Positions 5,263-20,209 of a stretch of DNA of 20,209 nucleotides are shown one piece after another. Positions within the stretch are counted from its first letter, which is position 1. Every line of letters begins with the position of its first letter. The position numbers and the translations under genes are program-made. This DNA comes from a virus: positions 1-20,209 of IMG/VR virus record IMGVR_UViG_3300046007_011554. One strand, written 5' to 3'. The notes beneath the pieces were generated by a model. That model was not told the origin of the DNA. It worked only from the letters and a program-made list of their open reading frames with translations, and searched no databases.

Positions 5263-5887
5263 ACATCACAGTACTGCTATCGCCTAAATTCCATTTGGGA
5301 TTGGTTTCAACGATATATTTCTTAGTGCATACTTTAAAATCCGGAAAGTTCATTTGCTTAGGATTACTTGCTGCATCAAAAAATAAACAACGATTATTTG
5401 GTTGTGCTGCATACTGACCATTATCAAGTTCTATAAAATTAAAACTCTTATGATCCTCTGGCCATTCGCTATATCCTGTGTCTATAATATTTGTATCAGG
5501 ATGAGCATGATCTACAGTAAACATATAATTGCCAGAATACATATTCTTATCCTTGGCATAAAACTTGCAGGATAGATTCTTTAGAAATGCCTTTTGTATA
5601 ATTGCCATATCATAATCAAAGCAATCCCAAATTTGCAGTGTGTCTAAAGGTAAAAGTTCTTTAGATAAATTTTCTGTTCTACTGACGAAAGCGTGTAAAG
5701 GAAGTTTATCATACAAAGCTCCGTAATTAGGTAAATATGCTTCTATTCTAAATGCCTGCCCTCTGATACTTTTTAGAGTGATCCAAATACAAGGTTCGAA
5801 TTCACCGTGTCCCTTTTCAAAATCATAAAGAAACTCTTTACGAATATAACTATGAATGGGTGGAAGATTTGCGACTAAAAATGCCAT
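5255..5887 (-). CDS. Conserved T4-like phage protein of unknown function (210 aa)
   Basis: The sequence is a soluble, mixed alpha/beta-looking protein starting MAFLVANLPPIHSYIRKEFL. It has conserved-looking aromatic and acidic clusters (EFEPCIWITLKSI, LQIWDCFDYD, KDKNMYSGNYMFTVDHAH). I recall close counterparts in many T4-like cyanophages, always annotated hypothetical. No catalytic motif can be named. It shares one base with the stop of the GIY-YIG gene (TAATG), implying translational coupling, and overlaps the membrane protein by eight bases. I would not assign a function. Confidence 0.75.
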   Translation of the reverse strand: MAFLVANLPPIHSYIRKEFLYDFEKGHGEFEPCIWITLKSIRGQAFRIEAYLPNYGALYDKLPLHAFVSRTENLSKELLPLDTLQIWDCFDYDMAIIQKAFLKNLSCKFYAKDKNMYSGNYMFTVDHAHPDTNIIDTGYSEWPEDHKSFNFIELDNGQYAAQPNNRCLFFDAASNPKQMNFPDFKVCTKKYIVETNPKWNLGDSSTVMYE

Positions 5888-6282
5888 TATGTTACCTTAA
5901 TATGTGTTCTATGTACTCTACATTGAATCTGACCATTGTAATAATCATTTGTTTCAAGAACTCTTCTATCCATTTGTTCTCGTGCTTCTAGATAATTACA
6001 TGATCCTTTATTAGGACAGATATGTAGAATTTCTCTGATGAAATTTTCTTCACCGTATTCTTGCACATCCTTTTTCACATCATCAGATGAAGACCAATAC
6101 GTTCTCCAATCTGATTCTGCTTTTAATCTTTTCTTTTTACCCTTAACCGTTTTAGTTTTTCTAAACCAAAATAGTTTTTTACCTATGTATTTTTTATTCG
6201 TAACTTTATTAGTTATCAAATAAACATAACCATATGCATCTTCAGGAATCTCCTCTAAAGGAGCATTATTATATAACCACAT
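5887..6282 (-). CDS. GIY-YIG nuclease-domain protein (131 aa)
   Basis: The GIY-YIG core is visible: GYVYLI (18-23) and YIGKK (32-36) form the first strands. FIREIL (81-86) follows, then a glutamate in YLEAREQ (E99), the expected metal ligand, and an asparagine in DYYNG (N116). A lysine- and arginine-rich stretch at 41-54 and SDWRTYWSS at 57-65 sit between them. The domain fills the protein, with no separate DNA-binding domain, unlike I-TevI. A DNA-nicking or homing-type role is likely from the fold, but a domesticated DNA repair or processing role is possible. A zinc/NUMOD-like protein is encoded immediately upstream, 19 bases away. Confidence 0.75.
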   Translation of the reverse strand: MWLYNNAPLEEIPEDAYGYVYLITNKVTNKKYIGKKLFWFRKTKTVKGKKKRLKAESDWRTYWSSSDDVKKDVQEYGEENFIREILHICPNKGSCNYLEAREQMDRRVLETNDYYNGQIQCRVHRTHIKVT

Positions 6283-6301
6283 AGAAAATACCGATTCTAA
6301 A

Positions 6302-6655
6302 TCAGTATTTATTATGGTTATCTACGACCTCCCAGTAATCACCGTTTTCAACAAATCCGTCAGAATCATCTCTAGGTGGAACTAGAAAATAATCATCGGG
6401 ATCTGTCATCACATCTTCTATTCTTTCAGTGGCAAGACCAGTACCCATCTGCCCTGTTTTATGAAGCATCTTTGTCTGAATAGACTTTTTATATCTATGT
6501 CCTTCAGACTCATCTCTTGCCATGTATTCTTTTTGTTTTTCTGAGAATACCTTTTTGTGCTCCTCTGTCCACTGCCTTGAATTTGCACACACCCTGCTAC
6601 AAAATTTACCAGGCTTTTCATGTGCTGTACCGCATTTAGGACACGTCTTCGTCAT
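6302..6655 (-). CDS. Zinc-finger protein with NUMOD-like segment (about 117 aa)
   Basis: A zinc-binding pair is visible near the N-terminus (CPKCGTAHEKPGKFCSRVC), followed by SRQWTEEHKKVFSEKQKEYM. That stretch resembles the short helix motif (NUMOD3 type, G/W-S-E-E-x-K-K) found beside DNA in homing endonucleases. The C-terminal half is acidic and unassigned. I prefer the ATG at 6655 (MTKTCPKC), which reduces overlap with the upstream gene to 20 bases; an ATG at 6688 would add 11 residues and 53 bases of overlap. With the GIY-YIG gene just downstream, it could be the detached DNA-binding half of a homing endonuclease. This is an inference from a short motif. Confidence 0.65.
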   Translation of the reverse strand: MTKTCPKCGTAHEKPGKFCSRVCANSRQWTEEHKKVFSEKQKEYMARDESEGHRYKKSIQTKMLHKTGQMGTGLATERIEDVMTDPDDYFLVPPRDDSDGFVENGDYWEVVDNHNKY

Positions 6656-7846: not shown

Positions 7847-8820
7847 ACGTCTGTCCAATTTCCACTTAGTGCACCTTTAGCATAATCCGTTGCTCTATTT
7901 TCAAAGAAATTAGTATGCGTTGGTGCGTTAATCATAGTTTCGACCCAAGGTAAAGGATTCTTTTTACGCTTAAAGATTCCTTTTAATCCTAAACTAATAA
8001 GTCTTCTGTCTGCAATATAACGAATATATTCTTTTACTTCTTCTTCGGTTAACCCTTCGATTGCCCCAGACTTGAAAGCAAGTTCAATAAATTTATCTTC
8101 AAGATCAACCATCTTCTCCGCAATCGTGTATATCTTGCCTTTGAGATCATCATTCCAAATCTCCTTATTTTCTTCTACATAGGTTCTAAATAACTTAATC
8201 ATTGCCTCGGCGTGTTGTGTCTCATCTACAATAGACCAAGTTACAATTTGTCCCATGCCTTTCATCTTTCCATGTCTAGGAAAGTTAAGTAACATGATAA
8301 AGGAACTGAATAGTTGCATTCCTTCGGTGAAAGCAGAGAATACTGCAATATGAGTAGCAGTAGAAGCAACATCGCCATTCTGTGAGCTAACACCAAGAAG
8401 GTAATCATGTTTAGCACGCATTTCTTCATATTCTAAAAACTCGTTGTAGGTTGATTCGGGCATTCCCAATGTTTCAATAAGATGAGAATATGCAGCAACG
8501 TGTAAAGCTTCTCTTGCAGCAAATCCTGCTAACATCATTCTTACTTCAGGTTGAGGGAAGTATGGCAAATAGTTTTTAACGTACCCACCTGCTACATCAA
8601 CATCTCCCTGAGTGAAGAAACGGAAGATGTTTGTCAAAAATTCTTTTTCAGCATCTGTTAATTTCTTTTTCCAATCTTTTACATCTTCAAGCATAGGAAC
8701 TTCTGTATGCAACCAGTGACTCTGTTCATGTTTTAGCCATGCATCGTACGCCCAAGGGTAATTAAAAGGCTTGAAGGAATTTCTTTCGTCTGTTAATTTT
8801 AGATTATTCTTTTTTATCAT
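7828..8820 (-). CDS. nrdB: Class I ribonucleoside-diphosphate reductase, beta (radical) subunit (330 aa)
   Basis: The di-metal site is complete: D73 (TQGDVD), E104 and H107 (REALH), E166 (FTEGMQ), E200 and H203 (DETQH). A tyrosine, Y111, sits four residues after H107, the place of the radical tyrosine Y122 in E. coli R2, so a tyrosyl-radical cofactor is expected. Length is slightly below cellular R2 proteins (about 340-375). It pairs with NrdA encoded upstream to reduce ribonucleotides. AGGA precedes the ATG by six bases. Between nrdA and nrdB lie an amidotransferase-like gene, an A-type Fe-S carrier, thioredoxin and a tiny membrane protein. Confidence 0.95.
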   Translation of the reverse strand: MIKKNNLKLTDERNSFKPFNYPWAYDAWLKHEQSHWLHTEVPMLEDVKDWKKKLTDAEKEFLTNIFRFFTQGDVDVAGGYVKNYLPYFPQPEVRMMLAGFAAREALHVAAYSHLIETLGMPESTYNEFLEYEEMRAKHDYLLGVSSQNGDVASTATHIAVFSAFTEGMQLFSSFIMLLNFPRHGKMKGMGQIVTWSIVDETQHAEAMIKLFRTYVEENKEIWNDDLKGKIYTIAEKMVDLEDKFIELAFKSGAIEGLTEEEVKEYIRYIADRRLISLGLKGIFKRKKNPLPWVETMINAPTHTNFFENRATDYAKGALSGNWTDVWGKAA

Positions 8821-8834
8821 TTATATTCCTAGTT

Positions 8835-8975
8835 TTATTTTTCTTCTAATTCGTCGATAAAGCCAAGCATAATTAAAAATCCTATGCCACATAAGGCAAT
8901 ACCAAACAGACTACCTAATCTTATAGCATAGGTCATTAGTAATGTAAATACTAATAGATTCAAAAATAGTTTCAT
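8835..8975 (-). CDS. Tiny hydrophobic membrane protein (46 aa)
   Basis: An open frame from the ATG at 8975 to TAA at 8835 begins MKLFLNLLVFTLLMTYAIRL. It continues with a second hydrophobic stretch (SLFGIALCGIGFLIMLGFI) and ends in an acidic tail, DELEEK. Two membrane segments are likely. It begins four bases after the thioredoxin stop and ends 14 bases before nrdB, filling what would otherwise be the largest gap in this operon. GGGTAG upstream is a modest ribosome site. Function unknown. Small membrane proteins of this kind can be easily missed, so this call is worth recording. Confidence 0.6.
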   Translation of the reverse strand: MKLFLNLLVFTLLMTYAIRLGSLFGIALCGIGFLIMLGFIDELEEK

Positions 8976-14293: not shown

Positions 14294-15316
14294 CTAACAC
14301 CTCTTCCATTCAGTAAATTTTATTCTTGCTTCTAACCCTTGATAGGTATTCTTTTTAATAATGTTTAAAGGAACTTTACCTGCTAGCACGATATCATTTA
14401 TATCCTTTTCCTGCAAGGATTGAGGCCAAATAACTATTCTATAATTCTTTTCAATTATCTTATCGTAAATTTTACAAACATCTTTGTTGCGAGGCTGATT
14501 ATCTAAAATAGCAACTACTTTTTCTTTTGGTAACTGTAGAGATTCCATTTTAACAAATGCTGTGCCTGCAACAGCAATCGCATTAGGCAAAAACAAACTA
14601 TCAATAGGGCCTTCAACTACGTATATATCTTTACTTTCATCTACTTTATCTATATTAAAAGCTAGAATTTCTTCTTCTCTAGTTTTAATAGTTAAATACC
14701 TAAGACTTTCATTACCTAGGGCTCTACAAGTTACTCCCGTCATAAACCCCTCTTTGTTGTAAAAGGGCAACACTAATCTAGGCTCTTCTGTTTTTACCTT
14801 ATCCTTATATTTCTCACTTAATTGATGGATCTCTTTAATATTATCAATGAAATAAAGATTGTTATACTTTTCTAAAGGAATTTGTCTTTTCTCACAAAAC
14901 TTGACAGCAATGTGATCCTTTGGTAAAGTATCTACTCTATCAAGTATTTTATCAATTATCCTTTCTTCTTTTTTCTCAAAGACAGGTTGTGCCATTTTAA
15001 AAGTATCTTCAATTTTTTGATGTGGTTTATTTTTCGGTAATCCCTGACCATATCTTTCTAAAGCATAATGATTATATTGTATAGCATTAAATTGCTTTAG
15101 AAAGGTACCAAAGTGCATTGATGCATCGCAGTTGTGACACTTGTAAAATAAATCATTTTTAACAGAGTAGAAGTAACCTCTTGCTCGGTTTTTCTTTTTG
15201 GAGGAATCTCCGCAGATCACACAACGGCAATTATATAGTTTGTCGCTCTTTTGCTTAAAGAGCGGCAGCTGTGAACTAATTAACTTTAGATATTTTAAAT
15301 CGACGAATAAAGACAT
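14294..15316 (-). CDS. DNA primase, T4 gp61-like (340 aa)
   Basis: An N-terminal zinc site is formed by C32/C35 (CVICGDSSKKK) and C60/C63 (FYKCHNCDASMHFG), with RGYFYS between. This is the arrangement of T4 gp61. A TOPRIM domain follows: VVEGPIDS with E235, AILDNQ with D272, and KDINDIVLAG with D304/D308. Length matches gp61 (342). It would make RNA primers with the replicative helicase (gp41-like, not in the window). A perfect sigma70-type promoter lies directly upstream, and AGGAG is five bases before the ATG. An inverted repeat covers both promoter and ribosome site. Confidence 0.93.
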   Translation of the reverse strand: MSLFVDLKYLKLISSQLPLFKQKSDKLYNCRCVICGDSSKKKNRARGYFYSVKNDLFYKCHNCDASMHFGTFLKQFNAIQYNHYALERYGQGLPKNKPHQKIEDTFKMAQPVFEKKEERIIDKILDRVDTLPKDHIAVKFCEKRQIPLEKYNNLYFIDNIKEIHQLSEKYKDKVKTEEPRLVLPFYNKEGFMTGVTCRALGNESLRYLTIKTREEEILAFNIDKVDESKDIYVVEGPIDSLFLPNAIAVAGTAFVKMESLQLPKEKVVAILDNQPRNKDVCKIYDKIIEKNYRIVIWPQSLQEKDINDIVLAGKVPLNIIKKNTYQGLEARIKFTEWKRC

Positions 15317-15341
15317 TTAGACTCCTATACGAAGTCTAAAT
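15315..15341 (-). promoter_or_regulatory. Inverted repeat overlapping primase promoter, ribosome site and start codon
   Basis: Nine-base arms ATTTAGACT (15315-15323) and AGTCTAAAT (15333-15341) are perfect inverted repeats around a nine-base loop (15324-15332). In RNA from upstream read-through, the AGGAG would sit across loop and stem and two bases of the ATG would be in the stem. RNA started at the adjacent promoter would lack most of the 5' arm. The DNA palindrome also overlaps the -10 box and start site, so it could be a repressor operator. Confidence 0.6.
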
Positions 15342-15368
15342 TATATAATAATTTTAACAGAATGTCAA
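15340..15368 (-). promoter_or_regulatory. Perfect sigma70-type promoter for the primase block
   Basis: On the minus strand TTGACA (15363-15368) and TATAAT (15340-15345) are separated by exactly 17 bases, matching both consensus hexamers. It lies in the 56-base gap between the coiled-coil membrane gene and the primase. Transcription should start near 15335-15330, leaving a leader of only about 15-20 bases. It is probably an early promoter read by host RNA polymerase and feeding primase, thyX, spanins and the ribonucleotide reductase block. Activity is inferred from consensus only. Confidence 0.75.
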
Positions 15369-15372
15369 GTAA

Positions 15373-15714
15373 TTAAAATAGATTTTCCATTTTAATGTGA
15401 GCCAAAACGTAGCCCACAACCAAAGCGCCGCCCATAATCATCCATCTCCATTTTTCGATTTTGGATATCTTTTCCAAAACATCTAAATTATGCTTCGCAC
15501 TAGTAGCACTATGATCATCTATCTTTTGCAGAATTTTTTCATTTTTAATTTCGAATGCCTGATCTAATTCATTTATTCTTGTGTGTAACACCGCATAGTT
15601 ATCATCAATTTTCTTTTCAATCTTTTCAATATTGTGCGTAAGTCCGGAAACCTGTGTTTCCAACACAGATACTCTGATGTCTGTATCTAAGTCTCTAATT
15701 TTTGGTTCAGCCAT
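15373..15714 (-). CDS. Tail-anchored coiled-coil membrane protein (113 aa)
   Basis: Residues 12-88 form a probable coiled coil (VLETQVSGLTHNIEKIEKKI, then INELDQAFEIKNEKILQKI). WMIMGGALVVGYVLAHI (91-107) is a single membrane segment near the C-terminus. The layout resembles XhlA/haemolysin-like phage proteins and other small lysis- or envelope-associated phage proteins, but no motif confirms this. It overlaps the upstream gene by eight bases. It is the last gene before the primase promoter, and I see no terminator after it, so read-through into the primase is plausible. Confidence 0.7.
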   Translation of the reverse strand: MAEPKIRDLDTDIRVSVLETQVSGLTHNIEKIEKKIDDNYAVLHTRINELDQAFEIKNEKILQKIDDHSATSAKHNLDVLEKISKIEKWRWMIMGGALVVGYVLAHIKMENLF

Positions 15715-16273
15715 TTACCTTTCCTCGTCTGAACATATGTTTAGCATTTTTGCTGGTATATCTTTTCTGTGCCTTAACACTGACCGGAACATCTTTTCCT
15801 AGACCAGCAATACCTGGAGTTGCCGCGGCATTATTTGCCGGAGCTGCAACTGCGCCGATTTCTTCTGAGAATTGCTTAAAGGTAAACATCTTCTTTTCAT
15901 TAAGAACAGTCTCTAAATAAGTAATTTCTTCAGAAAGGTTTGAATCTAAACGGTGTAAGAATTGTTCTTCAAGATTAATAGGTTCTTTATTTGTTTCCAA
16001 GTGTTCTTTTATTAATGAATATGCTGCAGCCAAAGAAACTATTTTCTTATTATCAATAGGTACTTTTTCGATTATCTTTTTTATTCTATAAACTAATCTA
16101 TGAAGTAAAGTATAAGCGTCTCTATCTTCTACTGTATTTAGATCGCTCATCTTTTTTAATTCTTTACCTTTTGCATCGATTATTCCGCGACGAAATGCCT
16201 CAGTATTTTCAAAGGGTGTGACCAATAGAGTTAATATTCTATAGGCTATAATTGAATCGACAAATCTTCCCAT
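15707..16273 (-). CDS. Conserved T4-like phage protein of unknown function (188 aa)
   Basis: The mainly helical protein starts MGRFVDSIIAYRILTLLVTP. RDAYTLLHRLVYRIKKIIEK and IVSLAAAYSLIKEHLE follow, then an Ala/Pro/Gly linker (about 143-163) and a basic C-terminal tail (AQKRYTSKNAKHMFRRGK). I recall the RFVD..laYRIL..LVTPF head from hypothetical proteins of T4-like marine phages. The basic tail after a flexible linker could bind DNA or a virion partner, but this is a guess. It lies one base after the upstream gene and overlaps the next by eight. Confidence 0.75.
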   Translation of the reverse strand: MGRFVDSIIAYRILTLLVTPFENTEAFRRGIIDAKGKELKKMSDLNTVEDRDAYTLLHRLVYRIKKIIEKVPIDNKKIVSLAAAYSLIKEHLETNKEPINLEEQFLHRLDSNLSEEITYLETVLNEKKMFTFKQFSEEIGAVAAPANNAAATPGIAGLGKDVPVSVKAQKRYTSKNAKHMFRRGKVNG

Positions 16274-16274
16274 T

Positions 16275-16664
16275 TTATATTTTTCTTAAAGTTTCTAAAA
16301 TTTTTTCGTCTAAAGGAATATCATTATCTATAATTTCAACGCCCGGCGAAACAATTACTTTCAGTGGCATATAATTTAAAAACACCAAGAAAGTTTTTAT
16401 CTGAGACCAGAACTTTCTTTCTAATTTAAAGAACAACATTTTAGTTGTAGCTTCTACACCAAATAGATTACCTAAAACAATTATATGATTAAGAATTAAT
16501 CTTTCTCTAAGATCTTTTCCTACATTATGCTTTCTCAGTAATCTTTTAATATATTTAAATCTTTTCAGATCGTCGTAAAACTCATCCATTCCCTTACAAC
16601 TGGGATTATCATAATTTTTTACGGCGAACATGATGAAATTATCTTCAGTCAATTCAAATTGCAT
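16275..16664 (-). CDS. Conserved T4-like phage protein of unknown function (129 aa)
   Basis: The compact helical protein begins MQFELTEDNFIMFAVKNYDN. It contains FYDDLKRFKYIKRLLRKH, LRERLILNHIIVLGNLFGVE and ATTKMLFFKLERKFW, blocks I recall as conserved in T4-like cyanophages under hypothetical labels. It ends after IPLDEKILETLRKI. One base separates it from the protease stop upstream and from the next gene, so the three are surely co-transcribed. The sequence before its ATG is AT-rich with no good ribosome site, suggesting coupling to the upstream gene. Confidence 0.75.
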   Translation of the reverse strand: MQFELTEDNFIMFAVKNYDNPSCKGMDEFYDDLKRFKYIKRLLRKHNVGKDLRERLILNHIIVLGNLFGVEATTKMLFFKLERKFWSQIKTFLVFLNYMPLKVIVSPGVEIIDNDIPLDEKILETLRKI

Positions 16665-16665
16665 A

Positions 16666-18255
16666 TTATTTAATTAATGTAAATGCTCCATTAGTAATGG
16701 TAACAGAGCCTCTTAAGTCGGCATCAGATTCTATACCTAAAGGATTGTATAAGAATCTGCTATTTCCTCCCATCAATGATCTTGTATTAGTATAATCATT
16801 GTTGACATTCGAAGTATATATAACCGAATTACTTACTGCTTTTGTAACGAACCAATTTTTTAAATTGGCTGGGGTAAGACCAGGATTTAATTGCAGAACA
16901 AGTGCGCCTAAACCGCAAACCTGCGGTGCCGCCATAGAAGTTCCGCTTAAATTAATTTGTCTAAATGATGAATCTAGATTATAACTAACATTACTATATT
17001 CATTGATATTGCTTGTTGCACTAACTACGTTTGCGCCGGGCGCCCAAATATCTATGCCTGGGCCAGTTTCACTTGAATGCGCTTTTTGATCTTGTACTGC
17101 ATTTTGTGTTACAGAATCAATACTGCCAACCTTTAAAGCATCATCATCATAAGGACTAGAACCTCTATGATATTCATATGAAGTGCCGCCTGTTACAAAA
17201 CTATTATTATAATCTACTCCACCGGGGGTATCTATTTTATGAAAGTTATTTCCGCCAGCAATAACTACATGTACTCCTTCATCTATTAATTCCTGTATAT
17301 CAACATCAACGGAACCTAATCTAAAATTAGTTACAAAGTTACCGCCGCTGGTTAAATTTACTAGCCCATAATTTGTCCAACGATATGCTGCATCAGATGT
17401 TGTTGAGGAATCGGTATATGTGGTTCCCCTATATGTTACAGAAGATACTGATGAATATGTTAAACTATATCCCCAACTCATATTTACTATAGTTGGTCTT
17501 CTAAAGCCAGTGTTAGGATCAATTGGTTTATTTCTGTGCCAAAGTTTAATTACATCAAAGCAATCGGAAATAGAAATACCCGTATTAGTATCTCCTACCC
17601 CCTCCAGACCATTAACCTTTAGAGAGTATATTCTTGCATTTTTTGCCCAACCAAAGGTTCTTCCAGCAACAATCCCTGCAACGTGGGTCCCATGCCCATC
17701 AAAATCTCTATAATGATTTGCGCTCTGTGTTCCGCCAAGTCCGCTGGCAGTATACCAATTTATTTGTTGTACTCTTGATGCTCCGGTATCGTCTTTAAAT
17801 TCAGGATGGTTAACTTCTATACCACTATCTTGAATAACTACATCCACGCCTGTGCCATCTAAAATGTATCTGTAGATATCGTCTGAGGTTGTTCCTGTAC
17901 CATAAACATTTGTTGCCTCATTTATTCTTTTTAGCCCCCAGTTTCTTCTGTTACCTGAGGATGAATTGCCTTTAGAGAAGTCTCCTACTTGTACTCCACG
18001 TAGACCAATTTTTACGTCGTCTCTATATTGAGGTGGTATTTCTACAGAATAAACTCTAGGATCATTTCTTAAATTACTTGCTTCTTCATCTGTTAATGAG
18101 TAATGACAGCTACGTAAGCTACCATCTCTGTTATTAATTATCTCTACTCTTCTAGATGGTACAAAGGAATCGGTTTCGCTTTCATTTTCTATTTGATTCC
18201 AGAAAGCGTCGTAATCAATGTTTCGATGTAAGCTTACAATATATTCTTTATACAT
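16666..18255 (-). CDS. Subtilisin-family (S8) serine protease (529 aa)
   Basis: The catalytic triad is complete: D143 in VVIQDSGIEV, H188 in DGHGTHVAG, and S440 in SGTSMAAPQVCG. The oxyanion Asn is N336 in VVIAGGNN. Residues 1-75 (YIVSLHRNIDYDAFW to NDPRVYSVEIPP) resemble an I9-type propeptide/inhibitor. The region after residue 470 is beta-rich and ends VTITNGAFTLIK. There is no signal peptide, so it should act in the cytoplasm or in the virion. It overlaps the glycine-rich tail gene by eight bases, pointing to tail-protein processing or a particle-borne protease that degrades host surface protein. Activity is very likely; target unknown. Confidence 0.93.
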   Translation of the reverse strand: MYKEYIVSLHRNIDYDAFWNQIENESETDSFVPSRRVEIINNRDGSLRSCHYSLTDEEASNLRNDPRVYSVEIPPQYRDDVKIGLRGVQVGDFSKGNSSSGNRRNWGLKRINEATNVYGTGTTSDDIYRYILDGTGVDVVIQDSGIEVNHPEFKDDTGASRVQQINWYTASGLGGTQSANHYRDFDGHGTHVAGIVAGRTFGWAKNARIYSLKVNGLEGVGDTNTGISISDCFDVIKLWHRNKPIDPNTGFRRPTIVNMSWGYSLTYSSVSSVTYRGTTYTDSSTTSDAAYRWTNYGLVNLTSGGNFVTNFRLGSVDVDIQELIDEGVHVVIAGGNNFHKIDTPGGVDYNNSFVTGGTSYEYHRGSSPYDDDALKVGSIDSVTQNAVQDQKAHSSETGPGIDIWAPGANVVSATSNINEYSNVSYNLDSSFRQINLSGTSMAAPQVCGLGALVLQLNPGLTPANLKNWFVTKAVSNSVIYTSNVNNDYTNTRSLMGGNSRFLYNPLGIESDADLRGSVTITNGAFTLIK

Positions 18256-19323
18256 TTTCTGTAATTGTACTTGGGAATCTTCTTAATTGCCCTGGCCAAA
18301 TAATTCTAACTGCTCCGTTTTTTCCATCTTGTGCATAGCGGTTATCTCCGCCTACGCCACCGCCGCCACCTGAACCATAAAAACCAAATGAACCTGAAGA
18401 ACCATCTCCCCCATCTGCGGCTGCAATAACGGAAGAACCGCCTACTCCACCTGCTCCGTTAGGGCCTGCACCATATATTCCCACACCGCCACCGTTCGCT
18501 CCTCTTGCGTCACGAACTACATCATTTCTAAACCCCGACCCGCCGCCGCCAGCTCCACCGCCGGTTCCAGCTAATCCTGAAAAACCTGCCGCAGAGGTGG
18601 GACTACCTGATGCTCTTTGTCCTCGTGCACCTGCGCCACCGGAGCCAGTATAACCTGCAGCTCCGCCACCACCTGGACCTCTGAAACCTAATATGGTTGT
18701 GTCAATTGATCCACCAACACCTCCAGTTGCGCCACCATCGTATACGCCGGATGCGGCGCCTCCATCGCTATCTGCGGTTGAACCTATACCGACAATAACA
18801 CTAGCCGAAGTTCTTGCTCCCTTTGAACCACCAGTTGCTATACAAGAAAAGGCACTTGATGGGCTTCCATCTGTACTACTTTGAGTAGTTGTTCTATTAA
18901 CTACAACCTGTCCAAACCCACCTGCGCCGACAGTTATTGTATAACTTTGCCCAGGTATAACAGCAATATTATTTCTATATGCCACACCACCGCCACCTCC
19001 ACCGCCACCTACCCCAACGGTATCAGATCCGGCATCTCCTCCGCCACCACCACCAACACAAATAACTGACACTGCAGTTACTCCCTGAGGACATACCCAA
19101 GTATAAGTTCCAGGTGAGGTATATTCATCCTGCCCATATACATAGACAGATTTACCATAAAAATCGTTAAGGGAAATTGTGCCAGAAAGAATGCCTGCTA
19201 GGCTTCTGACAGCTGATTCATTTAGATTTATTGTAGCTGTAGCGCTTCTACTTAACTCAAGGTTAATAGATCTACCTTCTACACTTCCGCCAAGACTAAT
19301 ATCCCCGGAGTTTAAAAGAGCCA

Positions 19324-19324
<1 letters not shown>
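18248..19324 (-). CDS. Glycine-rich tail protein with N-terminal fibre-attachment-like domain (358 aa)
   Basis: The N-terminus (LSGTISLNDFYGKS, residues 46-59) matches a segment common in phage tail proteins. Then EYTSPGTYTWVCPQGVTAVS leads into VGGGGGG and a polyglycine domain (about 91-340) of the phage glycine-rich domain type. The C-terminus GAVRIIWPGQLRRFPSTITE is also a familiar phage tail ending. It lacks the P-x-G-N-T module of the left-hand array, so it belongs to a different glycine-rich lineage. It starts at TAATG after the collagen-like fibre gene. A tail-tip or fibre role is likely. Confidence 0.85.

Positions 19325-20209
<885 letters not shown>

Follow-up and report, generated by a model that had tools for sequence, protein, structure and literature searches.

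A sigma70-type promoter nested in a ribosome-binding-site hairpin at the primase gene of T4-like phages, probably a widespread insulator against read-through

At the T4 genes e, soc and 49, as at I-TevI, I-TevII, I-TevIII, segB and Aeh1 mobE, long RNA folds the ribosome-binding site (RBS) into a hairpin, and a promoter within or just at the 5' arm yields a shorter transcript in which the RBS is left free, an arrangement that also occurs in related phages (PMC3014915, PMC2988022). The nested promoter in these cases is the late promoter TATAAATA, the gene is a late gene, and it is early or middle read-through that is silenced (PMC3014915, PMC2988022). Every gene under such hairpin control is stated to be late (PMC2988022), and for T4 gene e the effect is 100-fold (PMC3014915). 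The open papers that we searched give no account of hairpins at phage primase starts or of promoter-nested terminators like those described below.

Here, we describe a related arrangement at the start of a phage DNA primase gene, located in a window of 20,209 nt (the whole stretch of DNA analysed, from an uncultured, T4-like bacterial virus, IMG/VR record IMGVR_UViG_3300046007_011554). The first-pass annotation had claimed a perfect promoter overlapped by a perfect 9-bp inverted repeat with a 9-base loop, and both are present in the sequence (Table 1). The promoter, TTGACA-17-TATAAT (15368-15340, minus strand), is the sole 12/12 sigma70-like site in the half of the window that was scanned. The repeat, ATTTAGACT (15341-15333) and AGTCTAAAT (15323-15315) on the same strand, forms nine of nine pairs around a loop of 9 nt, and two more pairs, one of them G-U, lengthen the stem to 11 pairs and shorten the loop to 5 nt, ATTTAGACTTC-GTATA-GGAGTCTAAAT. 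Rfam gave no match at gathering score in the window, and the phage collection held no close DNA relatives of the window. Relatives of its gp61-like primase were found in 2,372 phage records. Genes for phrog_11543, thyX, ribonucleotide reductase and dCMP deaminase follow 3' of the primase, and annotations of cultured cyanophages show a comparable gene order (GC198 ... GC201 - primase - nrdA). The subtilase (Peptidase_S8, E 4.5e-36; 16666-18255, minus strand) lies among phage tail genes, and a tail-fibre-like ORF with collagen-like Gly-Pro-Thr repeats (20209-19720, minus strand) runs off the contig end. A single PHROG profile, phrog_451, spans both the DUF7201 gene and the primase, and the gene in the DUF7201 position overlaps the primase in cyanophages, which together hint at fusion or coupling of the two genes.

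Table 1 Features at the start of the primase gene and at the mirror-image element (window positions)
Feature	Position	Strand	Evidence
-35 hexamer TTGACA	15363..15368	-	sequence scan
-10 hexamer TATAAT; final base inside the 5' arm	15340..15345	-	sequence scan
Predicted transcription start region, ~5-11 nt past the -10	15329..15335	-	inferred from sigma70 geometry
Hairpin 5' arm ATTTAGACTTC, mostly 5' of the predicted start	15331..15341	-	
Hairpin loop GTATA	15326..15330	-	
Hairpin 3' arm GGAGTCTAAAT; contains Shine-Dalgarno GGAG and the A and U of AUG	15315..15325	-	arm-swap test
Shine-Dalgarno (SD) AGGAG	15322..15326	-	sequence
Start codon ATG of primase	15316-15314	-	sequence
T4 gp61-like DNA primase, 340 aa	14294..15316	-	phrog_47 DNA primase, E 5e-70
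Final gene of upstream operon, coiled coil and transmembrane segment (DUF7201, cyanophage GC201 position)	15373..15714	-	
Remaining upstream operon, tightly packed: glycine-rich/tail-fibre-like, subtilase, DUF7207, phrog_18642	15707..19324	-	
Mirror element: hairpin covering a segE-like GIY-YIG gene start (gene 5887-6282)	6273..6321	-	

Folding of both RNA forms agrees with the earlier proposal that AGGAG and the ATG are partly paired in long RNA and freed in RNA started around 15335-15330: the SD and the first two bases of the AUG lie within the predicted stem. The cost of opening the initiation region was used as the measure, as accessibility averaged over positions -14 to +3 proved too blunt. 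In predicted folds of the window, this cost is 11.3-13.8 kcal/mol for read-through RNA and drops to 2.4-4.1 kcal/mol for RNA started at 15335-15329. Mean costs are 11.9 for read-through and 3.7 for promoter-started RNA in 27 related lineages with a sequestered SD (type R), versus 5.4 and 3.6 in lineages without the element.

These folds are consistent with a simple mechanism. Read-through RNA from the upstream operon would carry both arms, the stem would hide the SD and the first AUG bases, and primase would be poorly translated from it. Transcripts from the sigma70-type promoter of primase itself, which overlaps the 5' arm, would lack most of that arm and present a free SD. Read-through RNA would arise mainly late, from gp55-type promoters, and the primase promoter would be active early or middle. 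A ribosome terminating 31 nt away is too distant to melt a hairpin; because the stop codon of the DUF7201 gene lies 31 nt 5' of the 5' arm, ribosomes terminating there should leave the stem intact. We consider it likely that the element is a read-through insulator where the structural-type operon upstream meets the primase/nucleotide operon, and that a sigma70 promoter of its own frees primase; the existence of the read-through RNA, its translational silencing in vivo and the timing are what we infer. The 110-220-kb contigs of lineages L032, L034, L047 and L049 carry about 20-30 consensus promoters each, and many of these share an extended -10 motif in the spacer, resembling CCAAAAGGTGTTATAAT. 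This motif is absent from the primase promoter, which may be of a different timing class.

Perfect 9-bp repeats with loops of 3-15 nt occur twice in the window versus a mean of 1.3 in Markov resamples, so that such a repeat, taken alone, is unexceptional for 20 kb with this composition. A hairpin this stable at this position has p ~0.007 when spacer and leader are shuffled with the promoter hexamers and start held fixed (row L001, whose leader and primase are those of the window). The relatives provide 159 different primase leaders, which form 93 lineages below 85% identity, and nearly all retain the 17-nt spacer and a TTGACA/TTGACT-like -35. A hairpin of matching geometry, with at least half of the 5' arm upstream of the predicted start and the 3' arm over the SD or start, was significant in 46 of the 93 lineages at p<0.05 (4.7 expected) and in 35 at p<0.01 (0.9 expected). 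By the same hairpin test, 8 of 87 control promoters from the same phages reached p<0.05; these are non-primase promoters, one primase having been left out.

Exchange of arms between lineages showed that the pairing is specific. In the window's clade, the helix score was 17.9 with own arms versus 13.2 with swapped arms (best of 2,000 permutations, 16.0), and across all 93 lineages it was 14.6 versus 11.6. The 5' regions were taken strictly upstream and the 3' regions strictly downstream of the predicted start; the clade-wide and all-lineage tests are non-circular, and those within hairpin-defined classes are partly circular. As swapped 5' arms pair worse, the arms covary between lineages. MAFFT alignments of the window's clade put the 3' arms out of register, and the evidence for covariation in this clade is therefore the leader table and the arm-swap test. 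Examples of 5'/3' arms are TTTAGGCT/AGCCTAAA in L003, AATAAGACTC/GAGTCTTATT in L016, ATAGTC/GACTAT in L048, CGTGTATC/GATACACG in L054, GCGCAGTATC/GATACTGCGC in L068 and CCTGTCATT/AATGACAGG in L063. The 5' arm is shifted onto the -10 or into the spacer in L054, L063 and L068, still 5' of the start and with the 3' arm reaching the SD. Comparison of relatives for compensatory changes, which the first-pass annotation had suggested, thus revealed altered arms with retained pairing in the window's clade, the opposite of the uncompensated loss of complementarity that it had named as refuting.

In the 28 ungapped leaders of S-RIM8-type cyanophages, 86% of cells are paired versus 23-50% when slid, and two-sided changes occur at six pairs. 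The element is present in the cultured relatives S-RIM8 and P-HM2. Among cyanophage-type leaders, covariation is clear in this subset only, and the hairpin is weak in these leaders overall (8 of 62 at p<0.05). Of the 93 lineages, 25, many of them cyanophage-type, have neither such a hairpin nor a leaderless start, and these two observations indicate that the element is dispensable. T4-type RB14 has neither the promoter nor the hairpin at gp61. Taken across the lineages, the element at the primase start is probably a real and widespread insulator.

Leaders of other kinds occupy the same slot. On the primase tree, the window falls within a clade of 18 lineages, 17 of which are type R. Next to it, most members of a clade of 15 are type T, in which 5-7 T separate the stem from the AUG and the 5' arm lies over the -10 or start; such a leader is, as predicted from its sequence, an intrinsic terminator in place of RBS sequestration. 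By the T-run rule, a stem and then a run of at least five T before the AUG are found in 15 of the 93 lineages (e.g., L233, AAGGTCTCTCTAAGAGGCCTTTTTTTATT), and the intermediates L034 and L219 have the SD inside the stem together with a short U stretch. In 26 more distant lineages, just 6-10 nt separate the -10 and the AUG, and their RNA would therefore be leaderless or nearly so; five of these (L311, L305, L254, L069, L295) also pair the AUG with the promoter. The cultured phages Melnitz and Mosig, whose hosts are OM43 and SAR11 bacteria, have leaders of this short type. Leader states, assigned by simple rules and arguable for L270, L211 and L231, changed at least 27 times on the primase tree. 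Upstream of the primase in L259 and L263, a second inverted repeat covers the -35 and spacer, 5' of the terminator-type hairpin (L259: CTGGAAAAC...GTTTTCCAG). Inverted repeats flank the -10 in L147, L148 and L177 (L147: GAATGTAC-gctataat-GTACATTC), which could be operator-like or another read-through fold. A broader proposal, to which we give an even chance, is that T4-like phages of freshwater and sea have a conserved insulator slot between the structural operon and the replication genes, placed before primase, where a promoter is nested in the hairpin's 5' arm. In this proposal, evolution has repeatedly exchanged one kind of block for another, be it sequestration of the RBS, intrinsic termination or leaderless initiation, and primase synthesis would depend solely on the gene's own promoter, regardless of transcription from upstream.

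The type T leaders bear on an alternative hypothesis, that the hairpin serves mainly to terminate transcription of the upstream operon, with the following promoter overlapping it. A T run of at least five after the stem in 15 lineages, including the sister clade, and the intermediate state of L034 and L219 would fit such a function, and sister lineages indeed have the canonical stem and U run in this slot. However, the window's stem is followed by GTCTTTATTC, without a T run, so that the U-run feature of an intrinsic terminator is absent; the close relatives also lack a T run, and the window's 3' arm carries a good SD. We regard termination as the main role of the window's hairpin as unlikely, and this reading would leave the purpose unchanged because termination also insulates. 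Quite improbable is a role of the stem within the promoter-started RNA, as a 5' stabiliser, a thermosensor or a regulator binding site. Transcription starting at 15336 or earlier would leave at least six pairs, but canonical starts leave little of the stem, and the 5' arm lies entirely 5' of the predicted start in many lineages (L048, L054, L063, L068).

The first-pass annotation had offered a repressor operator on the -10 and start site as an alternative, and the perfect palindrome does cover the -10/+1 region. A DNA operator would call for a conserved half-site and fixed spacing, yet among the relatives arm sequence, half-site spacing (loops of 3 to >15 nt) and position relative to the -10 vary by lineage with pairing kept, G-U intermediates included (L011, L020), and the 27-mer of the palindrome has no second copy within 3 mismatches in the whole record; this disfavours the operator, which we consider very improbable. 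Chance overlap of promoter and inverted repeat is scarcely credible: such a repeat does arise by chance, with about 1.3 expected in 20 kb of like composition, but the arm-swap test, the lineage hairpin counts relative to control promoters and the S-RIM8-type covariation contradict it, and it does not account for the persistence of pairing in relatives despite altered arms.

The insulator reading presupposes transcription from upstream. By its position, TATAAATA is the late-promoter motif in these phages, as 38 of 138 copies precede an SD and start versus 1-7 of 145-232 for similar octamers. In three contigs of relatives, the nearest copy upstream of the primase lies at ~1.9 kb (G004), 2.2 kb (G008) and 3.7 kb (G002), with at most one weak terminator, and none convincing, between late promoter and element; late RNA therefore very probably reaches the primase hairpin, as far as can be predicted from these contigs. 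No TATAAATA occurs on the minus strand at 15368-20209 of the window (4.8 kb upstream of the element), where the putative source of upstream RNA would be past the contig end or another promoter type. At 12478-12512 in L092 (G004), and likewise in L065 and L067, a late promoter, AATATAAATA, sits ~1.9 kb upstream of primase inside a hairpin that also takes in the SD of an upstream-operon gene of 147 aa.

A mirror-image version is found at endonuclease genes. The hairpin over the segE-like start (Table 1) has in its 5' arm AATAAATA, a T4-type late-promoter core (ATAAATA, 6312-6306), and the element is kept in IMG/VR relatives with arms altered yet pairing (L572-L599, L612, L620). In L131, an HNH_3 endonuclease gene (8253-8843) lies between primase and thyX, and a hairpin (8209-8260) covers its start codon with TATAAATA in the 5' arm. 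Both elements are the classical T4 arrangement, a late promoter inside an endonuclease-gene hairpin, and the primase element appears to be that arrangement with the promoter class exchanged.

The likeness to the logic of T4 e, soc and 49 that the first-pass annotation saw holds for the RBS hairpin and the nested promoter, although the promoter is sigma70-type instead of late. As in the T4 type, the primase SD and AUG are paired in the long transcript according to predicted folds, and the promoter is placed so that, from the predicted start, the short RNA is without the 5' arm. In contrast, the promoter is TTGACA-17-TATAAT with no TATAAATA there, the controlled gene is a replication gene, and read-through would come from the structural operon. 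We classify the primase element as a variant of the T4 type and not a member, because the late-promoter feature fails and the late-gene feature probably does too. The timing would be reversed relative to the e/soc/I-TevI logic. In IS10, IS50 and IS200, read-through RNA folds the transposase RBS away and RNA from the own promoter does not. The primase element resembles these in that the RBS would be hidden on outside RNA and free on own-promoter RNA, but unlike in IS10 and IS50, the gene is a primase at a phage operon border and not a transposase within an insertion sequence.

If the proposed function is true, a replication gene hidden from structural-operon RNA would be the reverse of late genes hidden from early RNA, and the RBS-hairpin trick would be a general means of insulating operon borders where genomes lack terminators. 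The mirror pair within one window makes both directions testable in a single phage. Replacement of RBS block, terminator and leaderless start by one another would be a natural experiment on interchangeable ways of ignoring read-through.
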